NCBI GenBank assembly: GCA_963965975.1
Contig: OZ014413.1
Span: 7,838,101-7,902,100, forward strand
Direction of reading: 5' to 3'
DNA: 64,000 nt
Source of the DNA: Xestospongia bergquistia
Taxonomy: Eukaryota > Porifera > Demospongiae > Haplosclerida > Petrosiidae
A model generated the notes under the pieces. That model did no database searches. It was given only the letters and a program-made list of their open reading frames with translations, and was not told the origin of the DNA. The position numbers and the translations under genes were made by a program. Numbering within the stretch: position 1 is the first letter of the stretch; every line of letters starts with the position of its first letter. This document shows positions 9,086 to 64,000 of this stretch, one piece after another.

Positions 9086-23777
<14,692 letters not shown>

Positions 23778-24700
23778 TAGAGTGAGTCCATCGCTCAGAC
23801 CTCATCAACAACCTTTTTGTAGCATTAATTTAAGTTTGTTTTAGTGATGTAGTTTGACTTTGTTGTGAAAGTTTTATAAAGTTTAGTATAAAATCACACT
23901 AACTTGTAGTTGGAGTTTGAATTTGTAGTTGTACATTTATGACTTTTAGTGTAATGTCACACTAGAAGTGTTAAAATGGTAAGCTTGAGATCAGCCTCTT
24001 GCAGACTACTAAAATTCTTCATTGTGATTGGCAAAAATCTCTGTGACAATGTTCATTTTTATAGATTTTCGGAATGAGGTCCATGTAGCTGCTTTAACTA
24101 GCTTTGTTAATATAGATTACTCCTTTCATTGTCTAAAATATTTTTGAACTTAGTCCTATACAGGCATGTATGTGATATATTGTAATGGTATATGCATACA
24201 TATCTACACATTATATATATACTTTTTGTCCCACTAAATGGTTAAAATATACAATACTACAACTATAAATAAAAATAATGTTGCTTTTGCATCTATAACA
24301 AACACATGATAATCATATGACAATCATGTGAATATAGTACTGGAAGTTTGAACTTTGGTACAACTGGGTAACCCTCAAATGGCTTATTTGGGGACATCTT
24401 TATCCAAAGGGAAAATGATGAAAGTGACTAAACATCTGGAAGATTTTAGCATTGTTTCCAACAAAGATGGAATGGTTATGACAATCCCAAAATATGTAGA
24501 AATAGGCACAATGACTATGCATTCAGTTGAATTTTTATTAATGAAACTTTCTGATAATTAATGTATGTAAATTAAAGACATAATGGTCATTAATGAAAAT
24601 ATAAGGTAGATTTTGACAATGTTTTTATAGAAAATTAAAAATGTAATGCTACAAAGCAATTTTATAACAATAATTGGCCTAACAGTCACTGGATCCTAAA

Positions 24701-25991: not shown

Positions 25992-27337
25992 CAGGAAGCC
26001 AAGGTTCACTAATATTATCTTTTGTCATTATTGTGTTTGTCTGGTACTATTCACCTAGCAAGCACTGTGTGCCAAACTGTTCTAGTATTACTTTGCAGCA
26101 CACATGCATGTAATGGGGTCTGCCATTACATATTCTACAAGTAATAATTTTGATGTAGGGAAGAAAACATGGAAAAGGAAAGAAACAAGATAGAGATAAA
26201 CACAAAATCCATATTAAAATCATAAATACAATAATACAAATAATAGTAATCAATATTAACAGACATTCAGACTAAGTACAACATGATTATATTACAGTGT
26301 TCTGTATATAGGAATGAAAGTGTAAGAGTTTTCTTGGCTACTAATGTAGGAGTTTTGTATTCATTGCTACCTTATTTATTTTTGGCAGTGCATCCCTATG
26401 TCATCTTTCAGTTTTTTGAAATGCTTTTTTATTACTTGTTCACATTTTTGAACAATAGTTTTTGGATGATTAATTATGATGATATTATAACATGTAATAT
26501 ATAGTGTGGCATTTTTTTCATAATTATAACTGTAATGGCATAGTATGTATGTAATTTATTATATCATAAAAATGTTGAAACTCACCAGTCTTGGCAAAAC
26601 ATTCTTTTATAAAAGCAACAGAACAGTCCCATCAAATTAATCTTAACATGATCTTTTGAAATTATAATTTTGTTATTACAAACAGCCATAAAGTTTTCCT
26701 AAGTCTTTCTTTAGCAAATTATTTATCCAGATTATCCATATGGCCGTGTTGGTACATTGGGATTCTCACAAGGTACTGGACCCATTCTACTTAGATATTC
26801 ATTTGTATTGTAGTGGAAATGAAGCTAACTTGGTAAAGTGTTACAAGAATTATAACAACACTCATGTTTACTCTGGATGTCAACATCATTATTATGATGG
26901 AGCTGTTATAATATGTGAATGTAAGTATCATAAACTTAAGTAAAAATTTGCATGCTAGCTAAAGATAAGTGTAGATAGTGTTGTCAAAATGCGTTAAGAT
27001 CATATGCTACTTGGATTTAAATGCTGCATTTTGGTTGTAAAATCATGACAATATCTTAAAGTATTAATAAGCTACAGTCAGACTATTTACCCATCTTACC
27101 CTTAATGATGTATACCAAATAACACTTTCATAATGATGGCTTTTAAAGGACTTGAATATGAAAGTGTTTATAAAACTATAAAAATATTGAAATAGCTGAT
27201 GTTCGCTATGAAAGTAAGATAACTTGTATAAATTTATTATAGTTTTTTGAAACTGCACTATAATATTATATTATATAATTAACTATTAAACAAATTTGAA
27301 CAATGCATTATTTTATATTGCATTGCTCACAAATTAG

Positions 27338-33430: not shown

Positions 33431-45933
<12,503 letters not shown>

Positions 45934-46236
45934 ACTGAGTTTATCACTCAAGATCCATAAAGAAAACGTTTTTTTAGATATTTAATGTTACTTTTTGGGT
46001 AGTTGCAATGTTTTAGTGCTATAGTTTTGTATTGAAGTTGTAGTTTAATGAAATTTTATTTAATGAAATTTTATTTTCATGAAGTTTAGTATTATGTCAT
46101 ACGTAAAGTGAATATTAGTAAAATTTAACTTGATTTTTCAGTAGCTTTCAGTTTTTTTCAAAGCATTGAAATTGTCTATTGTGATTAGTGGTAGTTTCCA
46201 TGAGCATGTGCATTATCTGTTTATGTTATTTAAAAT

Positions 46237-51594: not shown

Positions 51595-51678
51595 ATGCTA
51601 TTTTCTCTGCTGTTGCTCTACGTATCTTTGAGAGATACAGTATTTGCTCAAACATGTACACATGGCTCAGTTCGTTTG
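51595..51678 (+). other. Gene D exon 1: signal peptide
   Basis: Twenty-eight codons: LFSLLLLYVSLRDTVFAQ, likely cleavage after Ala, then TCTHGSVRL. Donor gtaagt, phase 0. Confidence 0.85.
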
Positions 51679-54600
51679 GTAAGTTATATAAACCTGCAAT
51701 GTTTAGTGCTTTTTTAGTCCTCATCTTATTATGGAGCTGTTGATGTCTGCTTCAATAATTCTTGGGGTAGTCTTTGTACTGACTTCTGGGATAACAATGA
51801 TGCAAGTGTGGTCTGTAAACAACTAGGTTATTCTCCATATGGTATGTTATTGATTTATGTGTATATGGGCATTAGAGTCAAAACTGCCTATCTGTAGGTG
51901 CAGTAGGGTCTTCTATTGTCTACTATTCTTCATCAGCTACCAAACACAACATCATTGATTTAAACTGTACTGGTAATGAGAACACTATACTGGACTGTCC
52001 TTATAATGGTCTCTCCAACTACTATTGTTCTCTGAGTAAAGATGCTAATATATTTTGTGAATGTGAGTTATAAAATTATCTAATCATTTTTTCAAAACTT
52101 TTGTAGCTTTGAGTATTACCAACTACAGCAATTGTACTGATGGAGATGTTCGTTTAGTAGGAGGAGTATCAAAATATCAAGGAAGAGTTGAAGTGTGTCT
52201 CAATAGAGCATGGGGCACAGTCTGTGCATACAGTAGTTGGGGTAGTCAGGAAGCAAGACTTGTCTGTAATCAGATTGGTGCATTGACAATAGGTAAATGT
52301 TTTCATTATCTTGCATAGTCCATGCTGTAAATTGAAGAATATCTTCATCTTTTAATTTACTTTAAATTTCAAATATTTATTAATATCTTTCATCATGTTC
52401 TGTTATTGCAAGCAGCCACAAATTTGTAATAATTAGCAAACTGTTTATATAGGTTACTCATATGGCTATGTTGGTAGTTTGGGATTCTCACAAGGCACTG
52501 GACCTATTCTACTTGGATATTTGTATTGTAGTGGAACAGAAGCTAACTTGGTGAAGTGTAATCAGAATTATCAGTACACTCATACTTACTATAAATGCCA
52601 AAATCACTACTATGACGGAGCTGTTAAGTGTGAATGTAAGTTGTAAACTTTACTAATAGAAATTTTTATTAGCGTAATTAGATTTATGTCTAGAAAAGAC
52701 ACATGCACATCCTCTTGAGAAGTCAATGTTTATTGAGCTAATAATTTCATAAATCAAAATTTATTCATGTTCATGTATAAGGTTGCCTAGAAACAGAAAG
52801 AGTAACAGAGTATGACAACAATCTAACATTAGATGACATTATGGAAAGTAGAATTGGAATTGAATGCCTGTCCTTCGGCTTCAGCGGTTATAAAATAGAG
52901 TTAATTTATCCTTAATCACAGTAAAGAGAAACTAGTAGCCTGTAAATATCACCTACATAAATAGAAAATATCTACTTAACTATTTTCAAAAGGCCTTTTT
53001 CATGCAAAAAAACAAGGGTACTATTAGTGGCCATTTTGCAAACATTTCTGATTTTAAACGATTGGATTTCAGCTATATCGCATTGTTCTTAAGAAGAGGA
53101 GGAACCACTTGATGAGCTGTCATAAGAAGCGAACATCACTAATTTAATCTCCTTCAAGGAGGGCTTGAGATTCCTTATCATCTGATCTTCATTTCTACAG
53201 CAATCAAAGGAAATTTAGAAACTTAAAAATATATTCAAATTTCATACATAACTGTTTATAAATGAATTACATGAGTATACACATATTATGTCTATAATTG
53301 TGATGACACAATAATAAAAAATATTAATCTATGCCATCACAATAACTTCAGGTTGATCACCATATTTATTACTCTCAGTTTCAATGTCTACCTCAGAATC
53401 CTTCAGAGTCTGTTTGTTCCTCATCTATTTTCATCTTCATCCACCTCTTCTTCTTCAACATTATCTAAAGCTCTTGAAATTCCAGCTCGTATAAACCACA
53501 TTTCTGATAAAATATGACTTTTTACTAATATACTCTTCTGTCTCCAGCTATTCATCTTGCTCTTTCATGAGTAGTAAGCTTGGTTAAATCTCAACATTAA
53601 ATATATTTTGTTGCCCTTCTGCTTTTTTTTACAATTTTTCAGAGTACCTCTGCTCAAGTTTTCTTTGTAGACATTCTTTTGCAGATTTACTTGCAGCAAT
53701 GTTTTGAGGCAGTAGTAAGTCTGTTGTGTTTAGTATAATTGGTAGCAAGCATACATGAATTATTTTCTTCCAAAAGGGTGTTGACTGCTGGCCTAAACCT
53801 GGCCTTTAAAATTATCCATATAATTAAAGCAAGAATTTTCTTATCTTTTAAGATGTCTTTAACTTGTGTTACATACAGTAAATCCAAGTAGATAAAGGAC
53901 AATGGTTATACCTGTCTGGTCCCAGTTCAATATGAGTTGAGCAGGAATGTTTTCCATAGTTACCGTATAGTTTCAAAGTCATGCAAAAAGAACTTCTTTA
54001 TTCAACAAAATTAATATTTGTATGCTTGCTGTTGGAGGAAGTAGCTTTTTGTTTCACAAAGTTTATTTGGCTAAAATGAGAATAAGCCCAGTGCTCTTAA
54101 GATGAATGTGTCCACTAACTTTTACCAGTTAGCTTGATCACTGTCACAAAGAAACAAAATCACCACTCATGCCTGTTCAATTGTGCTTGACCCATTAATA
54201 ACAAGTTACTCAGTGATGACCTCACTGTTATCCATTTTAAAATTGGAATTAGGTTGATCACTAGCTCATTACAAGCATTTGCCTTTTAATTTTAAGGGTG
54301 CATATTGGACTATAGAAATATTTTATTAAGATTACAATAAGCATGGTCGCACACAGTCCACATATAACCGCATAATGTCTTGGCAGCTGCCATGACAATC
54401 CTGGTAGACACATCTATTTTCCCACTCTGAGTTTGTGATGAACCTTCTTATCAAAGGTCTTTACCAAGTAGTACCTGTTTTCACTCCTTTAATGGTAGTG
54501 TATGAATCTTTGTGATTTCTTGACCTTGAGTTTTCACTTATGTTTAATCTCTTCTCTGTAATCATCCCTATTGATCACACTGTTGTCACTGCTGACTGTA

Positions 54601-57600
54601 CACTGAGCTTTCTCAAGACACATTTAGTTGGAAGTACCTTAAGAGAGAAAGTGTTCTTAAAGCAAAACTATAAAAGAACCATTGATTAAGCAGCAAACAA
54701 GAACAGAGCAGCTATACACTGAAACACACATGTTCGTTACCATATAAATAGTGAAAAAAAAACTTTTTAACTGTTTGTAGTAGGAAGATTTCAGTGTTAC
54801 TTCTTATGACTGTTCCAATCATTACAATGACTTAGAATTAAAATGTGAATGTAAAACTTTCAATATTATACTGGTTGTTTTAATGTATATACTCACTAGT
54901 TAGCTATCGTTATAATTACCCATTATCCTGTATACTTTAAAGTAGTACAAGTCACTTCTCTTTTTAATATACACTTTCTTGTAAATAGCTTTTTGTAAGA
55001 ACGGTACAATACGACTTAGAGGAGGAGGATCATATTATGGCAGAGTAGAAGTATGTATAAACAATATTTGGGGTACAATATGTAGTGACTTTTGGGGCTA
55101 TGAAGATGCCAGTGTTGTTTGTGGTCAACTTGGATACTCCAAATATGGTAAATACAACTGTAGTACTCTCTCTCATATTCATTAAATATTAATTGTAGGT
55201 GCCATACCTGCTTCAGGTTATTACACTGACTACCAGTGGTCTTTTGGTATCATTGATTTGAACTGTACTGGAAATGAGAGCAGTATATGGAACTGTCCAT
55301 ACAATGGAATGTTTAATTTTTACTCTTGTCCTTCAAGTCATGATGCTTCTGTGATATGTCAAGGTAATAATCATTAAGTACTAGTCAGATTAATTTACTA
55401 TTGTATATAGCAAACAATACTGAACCTGATAATTGTAAGACAGGAGAAATTCGTTTAGTTGGTGGAACAGAAGAGTATGAAGGAAGACTTGAAGTGTGCA
55501 TCAATCAAGTCTGGGGAACAGTGTGTAGTAGATATTGGTATAACACTGACACAAAAGTAGCTTGTAGACAACTTGGACATCAAATACTAGGTTTGTTGTT
55601 AGTAAGGCATAACTAAGTAGTGACATAAAGTAATTAATATAGGTGGAGTCAAATATGGCAGTAGTACCTATGGACAAGGAAGTGGTCCAATATTGTTTGG
55701 TTACATGTACTGTAATGGAAATGAAGGCTCTTTATTTCATTGTAGTAGGAGTGTGTTCAGTGTTACTTCTTATGACTGTTCCAATCATTACTATGACTTA
55801 GGATTGAAATGTGAACGTAAGACTTTCGATATGATACTGGTTGTTTTAATATATATACTCACTAGTTAGTTATCGTTATAATTACCCATTATCCTGTATA
55901 CTTTAAAGTAGTACAAGTCACTTCTCTTTTTATTATACACTTTCTTGTAAATAGCTTTTTGTAAGAACGGTACAATACGACTTAGAGGAGGAGGATCATA
56001 TTATGGCAGAGTAGAAGTATGTATAAACAATATTTGGGGCACAATATGTAGTGACTTTTGGGACTATGAAGATGCCAGTGTTGTTTGTGGTCAACTTGGA
56101 TACTCCAAATATGGTAAATACAACTGTAGTACTCTCTCTCTCATATTCATTAAATATTAATTGTAGGTGCTATACCTGCTTCAGGTTATTACACTGACTA
56201 CCAGTGGTCTTTTGGTATCATTGATTTGAACTGTACTGGAAATGAGAGCAGTATATGGAACTGTCCATACAATGGAATGTTTAATTTTTACTCTTGTCCT
56301 TCAAGTCATGATGCTTCTGTGATATGTCAAGGTAATAATCATTAAGTACTAGTCAGATTAATTTACTATTGTATATAGCAAACAATACTGAACCTGATAA
56401 TTGTAAGACAGGAGAAATTCGTTTAGTTGGTGGAACAGAAGAGTATGAAGGAAGACTTGAAGTGTGCATCAATCAAGTCTGGGGAACAGTGTGTAGTAGA
56501 TATTGGTATAACACTGACACAAAAGTAGCTTGTAGACAACTTGGACATCAAATACTAGGTTTGTTGTTAGTAAGGCATAACTAAGTAGTGACATAAAGTA
56601 ATTAATATAGGTGGAGTCAAATATGGCAGTAGTACCTATGGACAAGGAAGTGGTCCAATATTGTTTGGTTACATGTACTGTAATGGAAATGAAAACTCTT
56701 TATTTCATTGTAGTAGGAGTGTGTTCAGTGTTACTTCTTATGACTGTTCCAATCATTACTATGACTTAGGATTGAAATGTGAACGTAAGACTTTCAATAT
56801 TATACTGGTTTTTTTAATGTATATACTCACTAGTTAGTTATCGTTATAATTACCCATTATCCTGTATACTTTAAAGTAGTACAAGTCACTTCTCTTTTTA
56901 TTATACACTTTCTTGTAAATAGCTTTTTGTAAGAACGGTACAATACGACTTAGAGGAGGAGGATCATATTATGGCAGAGTAGAAGTATGTATAAACAATA
57001 TTTGGGGCACAATATGTAGTGACTTTTGGGACTATGAAGATGCCAGTGTTGTTTGTGGTCAACTTGGATACTCCAAATATGGTAAATACAACTGTAGTAC
57101 TCTCTCTCATATTCATTAAATATTAATTGTAGGTGCCATACCTGCTTCAGGTTATTACACTGACTACCAGTGGTCTTTTGGCATCATTGATTTGAACTGT
57201 ACTGGAAATGAGAGCAGTATATGGAACTGTCCATACAATGGAATGTTTAATTTTTACTCTTGTCCTTCAAGTCATGATGCTTCTGTAATATGTCAAGGTA
57301 ATTATCATTAAGTACTAGTCAGATTAATTTACTATTGTATATAGCAAACAATACTGAACCTGATAATTGTAAGACAGAAGAAATTCGTTTAGTTGGTGGA
57401 ACAGAAGAGTATGAAGGAAGACTTGAAGTGTGCATCAATCAAGTCTGGGGAACAGTGTGTAGTAGATATTGGTATAACACTGACACAAAAGTAGCTTGTA
57501 GACAACTTGGACATCAAGTACTAGGTTTGTTGTTAGTAAGGGATAACTAAGTAGTGACATAAAGTTATTAATATAGGCGGAGTCAAATATGGCAGTAGTA

Positions 57601-60600
57601 CCTATGGACAAGGAAGTGGTCCAATATTGTTTGGTTACATGTACTGTAATGGAAATGAAAACTCTTTATTTCATTGTAGTAGGAGTGTGTTCAGTGTTAC
57701 TTCTTATGACTGTTCCAATCATTACTATGACTTAGGATTGAAATGTGAACGTAAGACTTTCAATATTATACTGGTTGTTTTAATGTATATACTCACTAGT
57801 TAGTTATCGTTATAATTACCCGTTGTCCTGTATATTTTAAAGTAGTACAAGCCATTTCTTTTTTTTTCAATTAATCTTTTTTTATTATACACTTTCTTGT
57901 AAATAGCTTTTTGTAAGAACGGTACAATACGACTTAGAGGAGGAGGATCATATTATGGCAGAGTAGAAGTATGTATAAACAATATTTGGGGTACAATATG
58001 TAGTGACTTTTGGGGCTATGAAGATGCCAGTGTTGTCTGTGGTCAACTTGGATACTCCAAATATGGTAAATACAACTGTAATATTTTCTCTCGTATTTAT
58101 TAAATATTAATTGTAGGTGCCATACCTGCTTCAGGTTATTACACTGACTACCAGTGGTCTTTTGGCATCATTGATTTGAACTGTACTGGAAATGAGAGCA
58201 GTATATGGAACTGTCCATACAATGGAATGTTTAATTTTTACTCTTGTCCTTCAAGTCACGATGCTTCTGTAATATGTCAAGGTAATTATCATTAAGTACT
58301 AGTCAGATTAATTTACTATTGTATATAGCAAACAATACTGAACCTGATAATTGTAAGACAGGAGAAATTCGTTTAGTTGGTGGAACAGAAGAGTATGAAG
58401 GAAGACTTGAAGTGTGCATCAATCAAGTCTGGGGAACAGTGTGTAGTAGATATTGGTATAACACTGACACAAAAGTAGCTTGTAGACAACTTGGACATCA
58501 AGTACTAGGTTTGTTGTTAGTAAGAGATAACTAAGTAGTGACATAAAATTATCGATATAGGTGGAGTCAAATATGGCAGTAGTACCTATGGACAAGGAAG
58601 TGGTCCAATATTGTTTGGTTACATGTACTGTAATGGAAATGAAAACTCTTTATTTCATTGTAGTAGGAGTGTGTTCAGTGTTACTTCTTATGACTGTTCC
58701 AATCATTACTATGACTTAGGATTGAAATGTGAACGTAAGACTTTCGATAAACTTGTTGTTTTAATACGTGTATCCACTATACTCTGTCCGAGTTGAGAAA
58801 AGCCACTCAGACGTGTGAATAACTTTGCTGTTTTACGTGCTATCCACATGGGACTTGCACCAATAGATTCAGCTTGCAAACGCGCATTTTATATATAAAA
58901 TTTGGCTCTCTAGCGCTACGAGAAAGTACCAAACTATAAAACTCAATACATTTTGAATGGCATACCTTTCGCATACTTTAAATTGCACACCTTCGATCCA
59001 ATCATTACTATGACTTAGGATTGAAATGTGAACGTAAGACTTTTGATATTATACTGGTTGTTTTAATGTATATACTCACTGGTTATTATCGTTATAATTA
59101 CCCATTATCCTGTATACTTTAAAGTAGTACAAGTCACTTCTCTTTTTATTATACACTTTCTTGTAAATAGCTTTTTGTAAGAACGGTACAATACGACTTA
59201 GAGGAGGAGGATCATATTATGGCAGAGTAGAAGTATGTATAAACAATATTTGGGGCACAATATGTAGTGACTTTTGGGGCTATGAAGATGCCAGTGTTGT
59301 CTGTGGTCAACTTGGATACTCCAAATATGGTAAATACAACTGTAATATTTTCTCTCGTATTGATTAAATATTAATTGTAGGTGCCATACCTGCTTCAGGT
59401 TATTACACTGACTACCAGTGGTCTTTTGGCATCATTGATTTGAACTGTACTGGAAATGAGAGCAGTATATGGAACTGTCCATACAATGGAATGTTTAATT
59501 TTTACTCTTGTCCTTCAAGTCACGATGCTTCTGTAATATGTCAAGGTAATTATCATTAAGTACTATTCAGATTAATTTACTATTGTATATAGCAAACAAT
59601 ACTGAACCTGATAATTGTAAGACAGGAGAAATTCGTTTAGTTGGTGGAACAGAAGAGTATGAAGGAAGACTTGAAGTGTGCATCAATCAAGTCTGGGGAA
59701 CAGTGTGTAGTAGATATTGGTATAACACTGACACAAAAGTAGCTTGTAGACAACTTGGACATCAAGTACTAGGTTTGTTGTTAGTAAGAGATAACTAAGT
59801 AGTGACATAAAATTATCGATATAGGTGGAGTCAAATATGGCAGTAGTACCTATGGACAAGGAAGTGGTCCAATATTGTTTGGTTACATGTACTGTAATGG
59901 AAATGAAAACTCTTTATTTCATTGTAGTAGGAGTGTGTTCAGTGTTACTTCTTATGACTGTTCCAATCATTACTATGACTTAGGATTGAAATGTGAACGT
60001 AAGACTTTCGATATGATACTGGTTGTTTTAATATATATACTCACTAGTTAGTTATCGTTATAATTACCCATTATCCTGTATACTTTAAAGTAGTACAAGT
60101 CACTTCTCTTTTTATTATACACTTTCTTGTAAATAGCTTTTTGTAAGAACGGTACAATACGACTTAGAGGAGGAGGATCATATTATGGCAGAGTAGAAGT
60201 ATGTATAAACAATATTTGGGGTACAATATGTAGTGACTTTTGGGGCTATGAAGATGCCAGTGTTGTCTGTGGTCAACTTGGATACTCCAAATATGGTAAA
60301 TACAACTGTAATATTTTCTCTCGTATTGATTAAATATTAATTGTAGGTGCCATACCTGCTTCAGGTTATTACACTGACTACCAGTGGTCTTTTGGTATCA
60401 TTGATTTGAACTGTACTGGAAATGAGAGCAGTATATGGAACTGTCCATACAATGGAATGTTTAATTTTTACTCTTGTCCTTCAAGTCACGATGCTTCTGT
60501 AATATGTCAAGGTAATTATCATTAAGTACTAGTCAGATTAATTTACTATTGTATATAGCAAACAATACTGAACCTGATAATTGTAAGACAGAAGAAATTC

Positions 60601-63600
60601 GTTTAGTTGGTGGAACAGAAGAGTATGAAGGAAGACTTGAAGTGTGCATCAATCAAGTCTGGGGAACAGTGTGTAGTAGATATTGGTATAACACTGACAC
60701 AAAAGTAGCTTGTAGACAACTTGGACATCAAGTACTAGGTTTGTTATTAGTAAGAGATAACTAAGTAGTGACATAAAGTTATTAATATAGGTGGAGTCAA
60801 ATATGGCAGTAGTACCTATGGACAAGGAAGTGGTCCAATATTGTTTGGTTACATGTACTGTAATGGAAATGAAAACTCTTTATTTCATTGTAGTAGGAGT
60901 GTGTTCAGTGTTACTTCTTATGACTGTTCCAATCATTACTATGACTTAGGATTGAAATGTGAACGTAAGACTTTCAATAAACTTGTTGTTTTAATATGTA
61001 TATCCATTAGTTAGTTATCATTATAAATACCCATATATTGTATACTTTAAAGTAGTACATGTCATTAGTACTTTTGTCAATGATGTTTTTTTTATTATTC
61101 ATATCTTTTTGCAAATAGCTTTTTGTAAGAATGGTACAATACGACTTAGAGGAGGAGGATCATATTATGGCAGAGTAGAAGTATGTATAAACAATATTTG
61201 GGGTACAATATGTAGCGACTTTTGGGACTATGAAGATGCCAGTGTTGTTTGTGGTCAACTTGGATACTCCAAATATGGTAAATATAGCTGTAGTACTTTC
61301 TCTCGTATTTATTAAATATAAATTGTAGGTGCCATACCTGCTTCAGGTTATTACACTGACTACCAGTGGTCTTTTGGTATCATTGATTTGAATTGTACTG
61401 GAAATGAGAGCAGTATATGGAACTGTCCATACAATGGAATGTTTAATTTTTACTCTTGTCCTTCAAGTCATGATGCTTCTGTAATATGTCAAGGTAATTA
61501 TCATTAAGTACTAGTCAGATTAATTTACTATTGTCTATAGCAAACAATACTGAACCTGATAATTGTAAGACAGGAGAAATTCGTTTAGTTGGTGGAACAG
61601 ATGAGTATGAAGGAAGACTTGAAGTGTGCATCAATCAAGTCTGGGGAACAGTGTGTAGTAGATATTGGTATAACACTGACACAAAAGTAGCTTGTAGACA
61701 ACTTGGACATCAAATACTAGGTTTGTTGTTAATAAGGGATAACTCAGTAGTGACATAAAGTTATTAATATAGGTGGAGTCAAATATGGCAGTAGTACCTA
61801 TGGACAAGGAAGTGGTCCAATATTGTTTGGTTACATGTACTGTAATGGAAATGAAAACTCTTTATTTCATTGTAGTAGGAGTGTGTTCAGTGTTACTTCT
61901 TATGACTGTTCCAATCATTACTATGACTTAGGATTGAAATGTGCACGTAAGACTTTCAATATAATACTGGTTGCTTTAATGTGTATACCCACTAGTTAGT
62001 TATCATTATAATTACCCATATACTGTACACTTTAAATTAAATTAGTACAAGTCTTTTTTTAAATTGATCTCTTTTTATTATACACTTTCTTGTAAATAGC
62101 TTTTTGTAAGAACGGTACTGTACGACTTAGAGGAGGAGGATCATATTATGGCAGAGTAGAAGTATGTATAAACAATATTTGGGGTACAATATGTAGTGAC
62201 TTTTGGGACTATGAAGATGCCAGTGTTGTCTGTGGTCAACTTGGATACTCCATATATGGTAAATATAGCTGTAATACTTTCTCTCGTATTTATTAAATAT
62301 TAATTGTAGGTGCCATACCTGCTTCAGGTTATTACACTGACTACAAGTGGTCCTTTGGTATCATTGATTTGAACTGTACTGGAAATGAGAGCAGTATATG
62401 GAACTGTCCATACAATGGAATGTTTAATTTTTACTCTTGTCCTTCAAGTCACGATGCTTCTGTAATATGTCAAGGTAATTATCATTAAGTACTAGTCAAA
62501 TGAATTTACTATTGTATATAGTAAACAATACTGAACCTGATAATTGTAAGACAGGAGAAATTCGTTTAGTTGATGGAACAGAAGAGTATGAAGGAAGACT
62601 TGAAGTGTGCATCAATCAAGTCTGGGGAACAGTGTGTAGTAGATATTGGTATAACACTGACACAAAAGTAGCTTGTAGACAACTTGGACATCAAGTACTA
62701 GGTTTGTTGTTAGTAAAGGATAACTCAGTAGTGACATAAAGTTATTAATATAGGTGGAGTCAAATATGGCAGTAGTACCTATGGACAAGGAAGTGGTCCA
62801 ATATTGTTTGGTTACATGTACTGTAATGGAAATGAAAACTCTTTATTTCATTGTAGTAGGAGTGTGTTCAGTGTTACTTCTTATGACTGTTCCAATCATT
62901 ACTATGACTTAGGATTAAAATGTGAACGTAAGACTTTCGATATTATACTGGTTGTTTTAATGTGTATACCCACTAGTTAGTTATCATTATAATTACCTAT
63001 ATACTGTACACTTTAAATTAGTACAAGTCAATTCATTTTTTTAATTGATCTCTTTTTATTATACACTTTCTTGTAAATAGCTTTTTGTAAGAATGGTACA
63101 GTACGACTTAGAGGAGGAGGATCATATTATGGCAGAGTAGAAGTATGTATAAACAATATTTGGGGTACAATATGTAGTGACTTTTGGGACTATGAAGATG
63201 CCAGTGTTGTTTGTGGTCAACTTGGATACTCCAAATATGGTAAATATAGCTGTAGTACTTTCTCTCGTATTTATATTAAATATTAATTGTAGGTGCCATA
63301 CCTGCTTCAGGTTATTACACTGACTATCAGTGGTCTTTTGGTATCATTGATTTGAACTGTACTGGAAATGAGAGCAATATATGGAACTGTCCATACAATG
63401 GAATGTTTAATTTTTACTCTTGTCCTTCAAGTCACGATGCTTCTGTAATATGTCAAGGTAATTATCATTAAGTACTAGTCAGACTAATTAACTATTATAT
63501 GTAGGAAACAATACTGAACCTGATAATTGTAAGACAGGAGAAATTCATTTGGTTGGTGGAACAGAAGAGTATGAAGGAAGACTTGAAGTGTGCATCAATC

Positions 63601-63910
63601 AAGTCTGGGGAACAGTGTGTAGTAGATATTGGTATAACACTGACACAAAAGTAGCTTGTAGACAACTTGGACATCAAGTACTAGGTTTGTTGTTATTAAG
63701 GGATAGCTAAGTAGTGAAATAAAGTTATTAATATAGGTGGAGTCACATATGGCAGTAGTACCTATGGACAAGGAAGTGGTCCAATATTGTTTGGTTACAT
63801 GTACTGTAATGGAAATGAAAACTCTTTATTTCATTGTAGTAGGAGTGTGTTCAGTGTTACTTCTTATGACTGTTCCAATCATTACTATGACTTAGGATTA
63901 AAATGTGAAC
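51595..63910 (+). CDS. Gene D: SRCR receptor gene, 5' part, with nine-module array
   Basis: The gene runs off the right edge. Visible: signal peptide, SRCR1 (A), SRCR2 (B), then nine A+B modules, i.e. 20 SRCR in all and 41 exons, in frame throughout. SRCR2 ends phase 1 (T) and splices to CT of module 1 over a 2,353-bp intron. The first exons match genes A and C closely, so Ig/EGF/GAIN/7TM exons probably follow beyond the window, but this is not seen. No stop or frameshift occurs in any of the 36 array exons, although the module sequences differ by only a few bases. Confidence 0.85.
51718..52062 (+). other. Gene D SRCR1 (subtype A)
   Basis: Exons 51718-51841 and 51898-52062. Reads GAVDVCFNNSWGSLCTDFWD and DLNCTGNENTILDCPYNGLS. 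One codon shorter than in A and C. Confidence 0.9.
52107..52635 (+). other. Gene D SRCR2 (subtype B)
   Basis: Exons 52107-52292 and 52453-52635. Reads NCTDGDVRLVGGVSKYQGRV and ends YDGAVKCE. The first exon is full length (186 nt), the reference for the one-base loss in gene C. Confidence 0.9.
52636..54988. other. Long gene D intron with possible decayed minus-strand ORF
   Basis: No SRCR exon between 52636 and the relic at 54774. On the minus strand, about 53800-53640 reads PFWKKIIHVCLLPIILNTTD and then ASKSAKECLQRKLEQRYSEK before a stop. About 53510-53420 reads AGISRALDNVEEEEVDEDEN in another frame. These look like fragments of a decayed transposase-type ORF, but I could not assign a family. 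The rest is AT-rich. Confidence 0.35.
54774..54852 (+). pseudogene. Truncated B-half exon at the array edge (module 0 relic)
   Basis: TTTCAGTGTTACTTCTTATG and the following bases match the last 70 bp of the second B exon of the modules, with small changes (AAATGTGAATGTAAAAC). The exon start and its acceptor are gone. It marks an older, cut-off module at the left end of the array, joined to foreign DNA. Confidence 0.8.
54989..55954 (+). repeat. Gene D array module 1 (A+B SRCR pair)
   Basis: Exons 54989-55147, 55199-55363, 55411-55590, 55643-55816. A: FCKNGTIRLRGGGSYYGRVE; FWGYEDASVVCGQLGYSKYG. B: CKTGEIRLVGGTEEYEGRLE; CRQLGHQILG. B second half has NGNEGSLFHC where the others have NENSLFHC. 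Module coding length 678 nt (226 aa). Confidence 0.95.
55955..56922 (+). repeat. Gene D array module 2
   Basis: Exons 55955-56113, 56167-56331, 56379-56558, 56611-56784. FWDYED form in A, GEIRL and QILG in B. Confidence 0.95.
56923..57906 (+). repeat. Gene D array module 3
   Basis: Exons 56923-57081, 57133-57297, 57345-57524, 57577-57750. FWDYED; B has EEIRL (Gly to Glu) and QVLG. The tail intron is longer by a T-rich insert near 57862-57885. Confidence 0.95.
57907..59170 (+). repeat. Gene D array module 4, with insertion
   Basis: Exons 57907-58065, 58117-58281, 58329-58508, 58561-58734. FWGYED, GEIRL, QVLG. Its spacer holds a 221-bp unique insert followed by a second copy of the B exon end, making the period 1,264 bp. 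Confidence 0.95.
58776..58996. mobile_element. Unique insert between modules 4 and 5
   Basis: About 221 bp richer in CpG (AAACGCGCATTTT, CTAGCGCTACGAG) and unlike any other spacer. It is followed at 58997 by a repeat of the last 38 bp of the B exon plus its donor. That extra piece has no acceptor, so no extra exon results. It could be a small element or filler captured during unequal exchange. Confidence 0.6.
59171..60136 (+). repeat. Gene D array module 5
   Basis: Exons 59171-59329, 59381-59545, 59593-59772, 59825-59998. FWGYED, GEIRL, QVLG. Its spacer start is identical to that of module 1 (CTTTCGATATGATACTGG), unlike its neighbours. Confidence 0.95.
60137..61118 (+). repeat. Gene D array module 6
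   Basis: Exons 60137-60295, 60347-60511, 60559-60738, 60791-60964. FWGYED; EEIRL shared with module 3; spacer starts CTTTCAATAAACTTG like that of module 4. Confidence 0.95.
61119..62099 (+). repeat. Gene D array module 7
   Basis: Exons 61119-61277, 61329-61493, 61541-61720, 61773-61946. FWDYED; GGTDEYEG and QILG in B; ends KCA instead of KCE (GTGCAC). Confidence 0.95.
62100..63080 (+). repeat. Gene D array module 8
   Basis: Exons 62100-62258, 62310-62474, 62522-62701, 62754-62927. YSIYG in place of YSKYG, YKWSFG in place of YQWSFG, LVDGTEEYEG in B. Confidence 0.95.
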
Positions 63911-64000
63911 GTAAGACTTTCAATATTACACTGTTTTTTTAATGTGTATACCCACTAGTTTTTTCTCGTTATAATTACTCATATACTGTATATTTTTAAG
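63081..64000 (+). repeat. Gene D array module 9 (spacer cut by window end)
   Basis: Exons 63081-63239, 63293-63457, 63505-63684, 63737-63910. FWDYED; EIHLVGG in B; GVTYGSS in place of GVKYGSS. The usual module spacer follows, so a tenth module may lie just outside. Confidence 0.95.

Follow-up and report, generated by a model that had tools for sequence, protein, structure and literature searches.

A tandem array of two-SRCR cassettes, probably amplified recently, in a putative adhesion GPCR gene of the sponge Xestospongia bergquistia

Anatomy of the SRCR array

The window analysed here is a stretch of 64,000 nt (C3:7838101-7902100) from the Xestospongia bergquistia genome assembly (146.5 Mb, 21 contigs), with an A+T content of 68.5% and no N. 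All counts reported below come from this single assembly, and gene models were derived from the DNA sequence alone. The window carries several SRCR-rich genes, numbered in their order along the contig, of which the third (gene 3) contains nine two-SRCR modules arranged head-to-tail on the + strand at 54989-63910. Each module consists of domains A and B encoded by four exons; module 1 spans 54989-55816 (exons 54989-55147, 55199-55363, 55411-55590 and 55643-55816) and is followed, also on the + strand, by module 2 (55955-56784), module 3 (56923-57750), module 4 (57907-58734), module 5 (59171-59998), module 6 (60137-60964), module 7 (61119-61946), module 8 (62100-62927) and module 9 (63081-63910). 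An initial annotation, made from the sequence, had proposed nine such units with identical exon lengths and a step of 226 residues per copy. Our analysis confirms both points, since the exons measure 159, 165, 180 and 174 nt in all nine modules and sum to 678 nt, or 226 codons, with phase-1 boundaries. The module introns (51-53, 47 and 52 nt) all run from GT to AG, and neither an in-frame stop nor a frameshift occurs in any of the 36 array exons. The module matches the SRCR domain PF00530 in two stretches with 148.3 bits (curated cut-off 26.1), and domains A and B contain eight cysteines each, where six or eight are typical of SRCR. When one module was compared with the genome, nine tandem places matched at 97-100% identity over 828-830 bp, whereas other full-length matches reached at most 85% (40 of 143 candidates scored, so that further modules may exist outside the array), and the array is therefore not a product of chance. 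Tandem Repeats Finder returned no rows for the window because the module period exceeds 500, the longest period allowed.

The spacers following the modules measure 138, 138, 156, 436, 138, 154, 153, 153 and 158 nt, and thus 138-158 nt with the exception of the fourth. Spacer 4 contains a dispersed repeat of about 220 bp (58776-58996, strand unassigned), apparently a young mobile element, that recurs at 39 further places with 96-98% identity among the matches listed (scored: 40 of 324 candidates); directly 3′ of it, on the + strand at 58997-59033, the final 37 bp of exon 4 occur again at 100% identity. Both edges of the array are incomplete. A tenth copy, of which only exons 1 and 2 are present, begins at 64069, outside the window, and similarity falls beyond it, while upstream of module 1 an earlier module has left a decayed exon 4 that lacks one base, at 54775-54850 (+ strand), remnant and spacer together being 93% identical to module 1.

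The modules are alike but not uniform. The initial annotation had described introns and spacers as almost the same, which is an overstatement, given that mean pairwise p-distances are 0.014 in exons, 0.069 in introns and 0.139 in spacers and that spacer 4 departs in length. The mosaic variants that it had listed are all present: the E of EEIRL in modules 3 and 6, the I of QILG in modules 1, 2 and 7, and a spacer start common to modules 1 and 5. At the protein level 14 of 225 residues vary, giving eight distinct proteins among the nine modules, and the longest exact repeat within the array is 522 bp.

The host gene and its relatives

Upstream of the array, an open frame with a signal-peptide-like start (51595-51714, + strand), judged by eye and with its donor site not fixed, is presumed to be the first coding exon of gene 3. 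It is followed on the same strand by four exon segments encoding SRCR1 and SRCR2 (51721-52635) and by a presumed intron of 2.35 kb (52636-54988, splice sites read) that leads from SRCR2 to module 1, contains the exon-4 remnant and has parts that recur in sibling loci. A profile scan of 124 kb found 193 SRCR segments, all on the + strand, with 19, 16, 44 and 18 start-half segments in genes 1-4, respectively, the array contributing 18 of the 44 in gene 3. Further 3′, beyond the window (79020-82894 in window numbering), the SRCR exons of gene 3 are followed by EGF, Ig, weak HRM-like, GPS and 7tm_2 pieces; the GPS motif (PF01825) scores 51.2 bits, and the class B seven-helix domain (PF00002) is matched on two exon pieces with 26.1 and 32.0 bits (cut-off 20.6). 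The HLT motif is present at the GPS in all four tails read. The best named relatives are Amphimedon queenslandica proteins, with 58% identity to the module and 51% to the receptor tail. With a signal-peptide-like exon, 44 SRCR starts, Ig, EGF, GPS and 7tm_2, gene 3 most likely encodes a demosponge adhesion G-protein-coupled receptor (GPCR). That the array would lie in an ectodomain, as first annotated, agrees with a single run of genes containing exons of all three kinds, signal-peptide-like, GPS and 7tm_2, which we infer to be joined.

We interpret the locus as a series of adhesion GPCR genes clustered in tandem, whose products would be rich in SRCR outside the cell. The 4-kb tail of gene 3 shares 86-88% identity with those of genes 1, 2 and 4, and signal-peptide-like starts were read in genes 1, 3, 4 and 5. 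The distance from the signal ATG to the GPS is 29.9 kb in gene 3 versus 13.3 kb in gene 1, 16.2 kb in gene 4 and 15.2 kb in gene 5, which makes gene 3 roughly double the length of these siblings. Among the 145 GPS matches listed genome-wide (150 scored of 166 candidates), 12 fall at C3:7.86-8.42 Mb.

The state of the slot after SRCR2 differs between these genes. In genes 1, 2 and 4 and in one further locus (L050) SRCR3 follows SRCR2 directly, with no cassette between them, and at L046 and L048 no SRCR was found within the 2.4-2.6 kb examined after SRCR2. A gene at C3:8.134 Mb, 240 kb away, has the order SRCR2, A+B, A+B, next SRCR, and thus two cassettes in the slot. Beyond the array, among the candidates scored, we found 15 full-length modules with 75-85% identity, most of them at 8.06-8.35 Mb. 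Of these, 11 have no second full-length copy within 1.5 kb on either side and four are paired; position within the gene was established for the 8.134-Mb pair. Within this SRCR-adhesion GPCR cluster, the array marks the far end of the range of cassette states. Its presence in gene 3 and its absence from the neighbouring related genes suggest that recombination has recently lengthened the outer portion of the receptor.

Some further features of the region and genome were observed. Within the window, 9086-23797 and 33470-46058 hold two more SRCR-adhesion-GPCR-like genes of the cluster, whose 4-kb tails share 86-87% identity with the tail of gene 3. Between genes 1 and 2 there is an isolated fragment of an SRCR end half (26782-26910), and a run of about 16 tyrosines occurs within an SRCR segment of gene 2 (37298-37501). 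Many of the listed GPS matches are tightly clustered (on contigs C2, C4, C5, C7, C10 and C15, among others), indicating that adhesion-GPCR-like genes have also expanded greatly elsewhere in the genome.

Internal SRCR arrays were also found on two other contigs. An array on C1 (L057, C1:18907001-18917000, 18.907-18.917 Mb) comprises ten two-SRCR units of about 870-917 bp, eight of them full, which are down to 1.3% apart, although two of the full units are 16-33% diverged from the others. On C4 (L058, C4:6829501-6836500, 6.8295-6.8365 Mb) there are ten single-SRCR units of about 463-476 bp, nine of them full, mostly 454-478 bp apart and differing by as little as 0.4%. In both, likeness is greatest within groups of neighbouring copies, and no GPS match lies nearby among the matches listed. 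Counting gene 3, at least three genes of this genome therefore contain an internal SRCR array.

Signals of exchange and selection among the modules

In a tree of the array and the 15 outside modules, built without L039 and weaker places, the nine array modules form one clade with a support of 1.00, and the two modules at 8.135-8.136 Mb group most closely with each other, also with a support of 1.00. In this second pair (L024/L027, C3:8135267-8137001) the same A+B cassette has been duplicated recently and independently, to two copies. Synonymous divergence (dS) is 0.036 within the array versus 0.25-0.44 to 14 outside modules (L040 excluded), and hence 7-12 times lower inside. Within the array, modules 1-3 and modules 4-6 form two close groups, and modules 7, 8 and 9 are more diverged.

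A conversion test on the nine aligned modules, as suggested with the initial annotation, revealed a mosaic. In a test of neighbour incompatibility, neighbouring sites agree more than shuffled sites (none of 5000 permutations as extreme), shared runs are longer than in shuffled data (0 of 2000), and the minimum number of recombination events (Rm) is 17 from 45 informative sites, so that segments must have been exchanged after the copies had diverged. The single clade, the low dS inside the array, the mosaic sites and the decayed edges thus support the earlier proposal of recent unequal crossing-over or continuing conversion. The ratio of non-synonymous to synonymous differences per site (pN/pS) within the array is 0.22, with a wide bootstrap interval. 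Synonymous divergence in exons (0.037) is lower than the divergence of introns given above, which could reflect either exon-biased exchange or constraint. Unequal crossing-over or conversion under purifying selection is well supported by these patterns, and copy number may plausibly vary between individuals.

Origin and possible meaning of the array

The explanation that we consider probable is that an A+B cassette located after SRCR2 of an SRCR-adhesion GPCR was recently amplified by unequal exchange, with a consequent effect on extracellular length. A cassette of four exons with phase-1 boundaries would occupy this slot in the demosponge receptor, and in gene 3 unequal homologous exchange between copies would recently have produced nine full cassettes and one half cassette, with exchange or conversion among them perhaps still continuing. 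Because the cassette is made up of whole codons and is flanked by phase-1 introns, adding or removing copies within the spacers should keep the frame, and because purifying selection would keep the copies alike, it is their number that would change and not their repertoire. Each copy would add 226 extracellular residues to a GPS-cleavable seven-helix receptor, and copy count may thereby alter the valency of a sensor that is adhesive or faces microbes, and how far it reaches. It is a more tentative possibility that a fast-changing cassette count sets the extracellular length of the receptor, such that individuals differ and carry mechanically different GPS-cleavable receptors, possibly for microbe sensing or self/non-self recognition.

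Several observations weigh against this explanation. The bootstrap interval of pN/pS extends from 0.14 to 0.78, with 30 of 5000 replicates at or above 1, and in the independent L024/L027 pair dN (0.033) is about equal to dS (0.032), so that purifying selection is not shown there. The 200-residue piece scanned gave no Pfam match for a GAIN domain, the HRM-like piece scores below its cut-off, and no signal peptide was read in the short stretch of gene 2 examined. It is from gene order that we infer a link between the SRCR exons and the receptor tail; automatic splice picks are approximate and at times took a neighbouring site (as in exon 2 of the modules), which makes the full gene model approximate as well; and the array is known from one assembly.

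Near-identical tandem copies are a known point of failure for assemblers, and an array seen in assembled sequence might in principle be falsely long through the merging of haplotypes or misplaced reads, particularly as modules 4 and 5 differ at one exon base (in a matrix with exon 3 one base short). However, there is no N and no exact repeat longer than 522 bp, eight distinct proteins are encoded by the nine modules, the dispersed repeat is confined to one spacer and introns differ by 7% on average, and an assembly artefact is therefore very unlikely. It is rather improbable that the SRCR exons and the GPS and 7tm_2 exons form two separate genes, the former encoding a protein that is secreted or crosses the membrane once. 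In favour of such a division, a protein with 44 SRCR domains would be very long, and the arrays on C1 and C4 have no listed GPS match in their vicinity, but along the cluster signal-peptide-like exons take turns with GPS motifs (genes 1, 3, 4 and 5), and SRCR-bearing adhesion GPCRs have been reported in Amphimedon (PMC4302439). Comparable doubt attaches to an array that merely drifts, gaining and losing copies by exchange with no effect on fitness: the remnant at the edge, the inserted repeat and the near-equal dN and dS of the independent two-copy pair would fit, whereas the intact state of all 36 array exons and the low pN/pS, for all its wide interval, would not. The probability that the array is a pseudogene is low.

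We had expected that the array multiplies Ca2+-dependent sites. The relatives with solved structures include CD163, CD5-like and DMBT1, and in SALSA/DMBT1 residues D1019, D1020 and E1086 hold one cation, with binding abolished by D1019A or D1020A, at a dual cation-binding site reported to be conserved across the SRCR superfamily (PMC7043408). Using that numbering and an alignment to the solved relatives, we mapped the cation residues onto the array. The position of D1019 is Ser in all 18 array domains and acidic in none, versus acidic in 28 of 55 parsed domains outside the array (from 79 start halves, the others misfitting the pattern); that of D1020 is Asp in the nine A domains and Arg in the nine B domains; and that of E1086 is His in A and Tyr in B. 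Residue 36, which in our own mapping corresponds to SALSA D1023, is Gly in modules 1, 4, 5 and 6 and Asp in the remaining five. The non-acidic pair of the B domain is common to all five outside modules that translate in frame, and is therefore a property of the cassette and not of its amplification. The dual cation site was thus not found in the array domains, which weakens a Ca2+-binding reading but not membership of the SRCR fold, and the alignment speaks against our expectation. A multivalent Ca2+-dependent scavenger, in which the array multiplies DMBT1-like sites for anionic microbial ligands, would accord with the SRCR fold, with the relationship to CD163 and DMBT1 and with the shift in expression of SRCR and GPS genes of the sponge Aplysina aerophoba in response to microbial molecules (PMC6208332); given the residues at the three mapped positions, we regard it as unlikely. 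As both array domains lack most cation-site residues, a spacer or a repeated, cation-free contact surface is favoured. N-glycosylation motifs are no denser in the array (1.87 per 100 residues) than elsewhere (1.46-1.89).

The mode of amplification has precedents. Human DMBT1/SALSA likewise has tandem SRCR units within one gene, one unit being present at 0-11 copies per diploid genome and another site mutating at 0.7-2.7% per generation; unlike gene 3, it is a secreted glycoprotein with one- or four-SRCR units and demonstrated polymorphism, the cation site being mostly absent in our array (PMC4851238). Kringle IV type 2 (KIV-2) of LPA is an intron-including, frame-preserving domain repeat in one gene, at 1 to >40 copies per allele, but encodes a kringle domain by two exons per 5.6-kb unit and belongs to a plasma protein (PMC6314250). 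The gene 3 array shares with both an organisation of intron-including, in-frame, near-identical tandem units in one gene. Amongst sponges, the SRCR genes of Amphimedon, of which 158 of 296 lie in tandem arrays, are duplicated by units of one or two SRCR, and two-SRCR groups have been proposed as the duplication units, as in gene 3; that cluster differs in having 2-6 SRCR per gene and three exons per domain, and the accessible text describes no conversion test (PMC10855680). The A. queenslandica adhesion GPCRs Aq712029 and Aq715659 contain multiple SRCR repeats, which were called unique, and some family members have HRM, Ig or EGF; compared by description, they differ from gene 3 in that the accessible text reports no recent homogenised array or tandem cluster (PMC4302439). 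Homogenisation of CD163/WC1 (PMC2906472) and SRCR counts in sponges (PMC12465263) have been discussed elsewhere. In their accessible portions, a 2026 review of adhesion GPCRs mentions neither SRCR nor sponges (PMC13197933) and a further paper does not mention SRCR (PMC12716839). Titles and abstracts of the open-access papers searched contain no description of an adhesion GPCR with a homogenised SRCR array, and neither this receptor context nor a comparison between paralogues was found in that literature.

Our preferred explanation, cassette amplification in an adhesion GPCR, would mean that an early-branching animal has an intron-including domain array of the DMBT1/LPA type in the extracellular region of one of its signalling receptors. 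The related genes, with none, one, two or nine cassettes, form a series in which the relation between extracellular length and adhesion-GPCR signalling becomes testable. The same series would allow a test of whether sponge receptors may vary by recombination rather than by point change.

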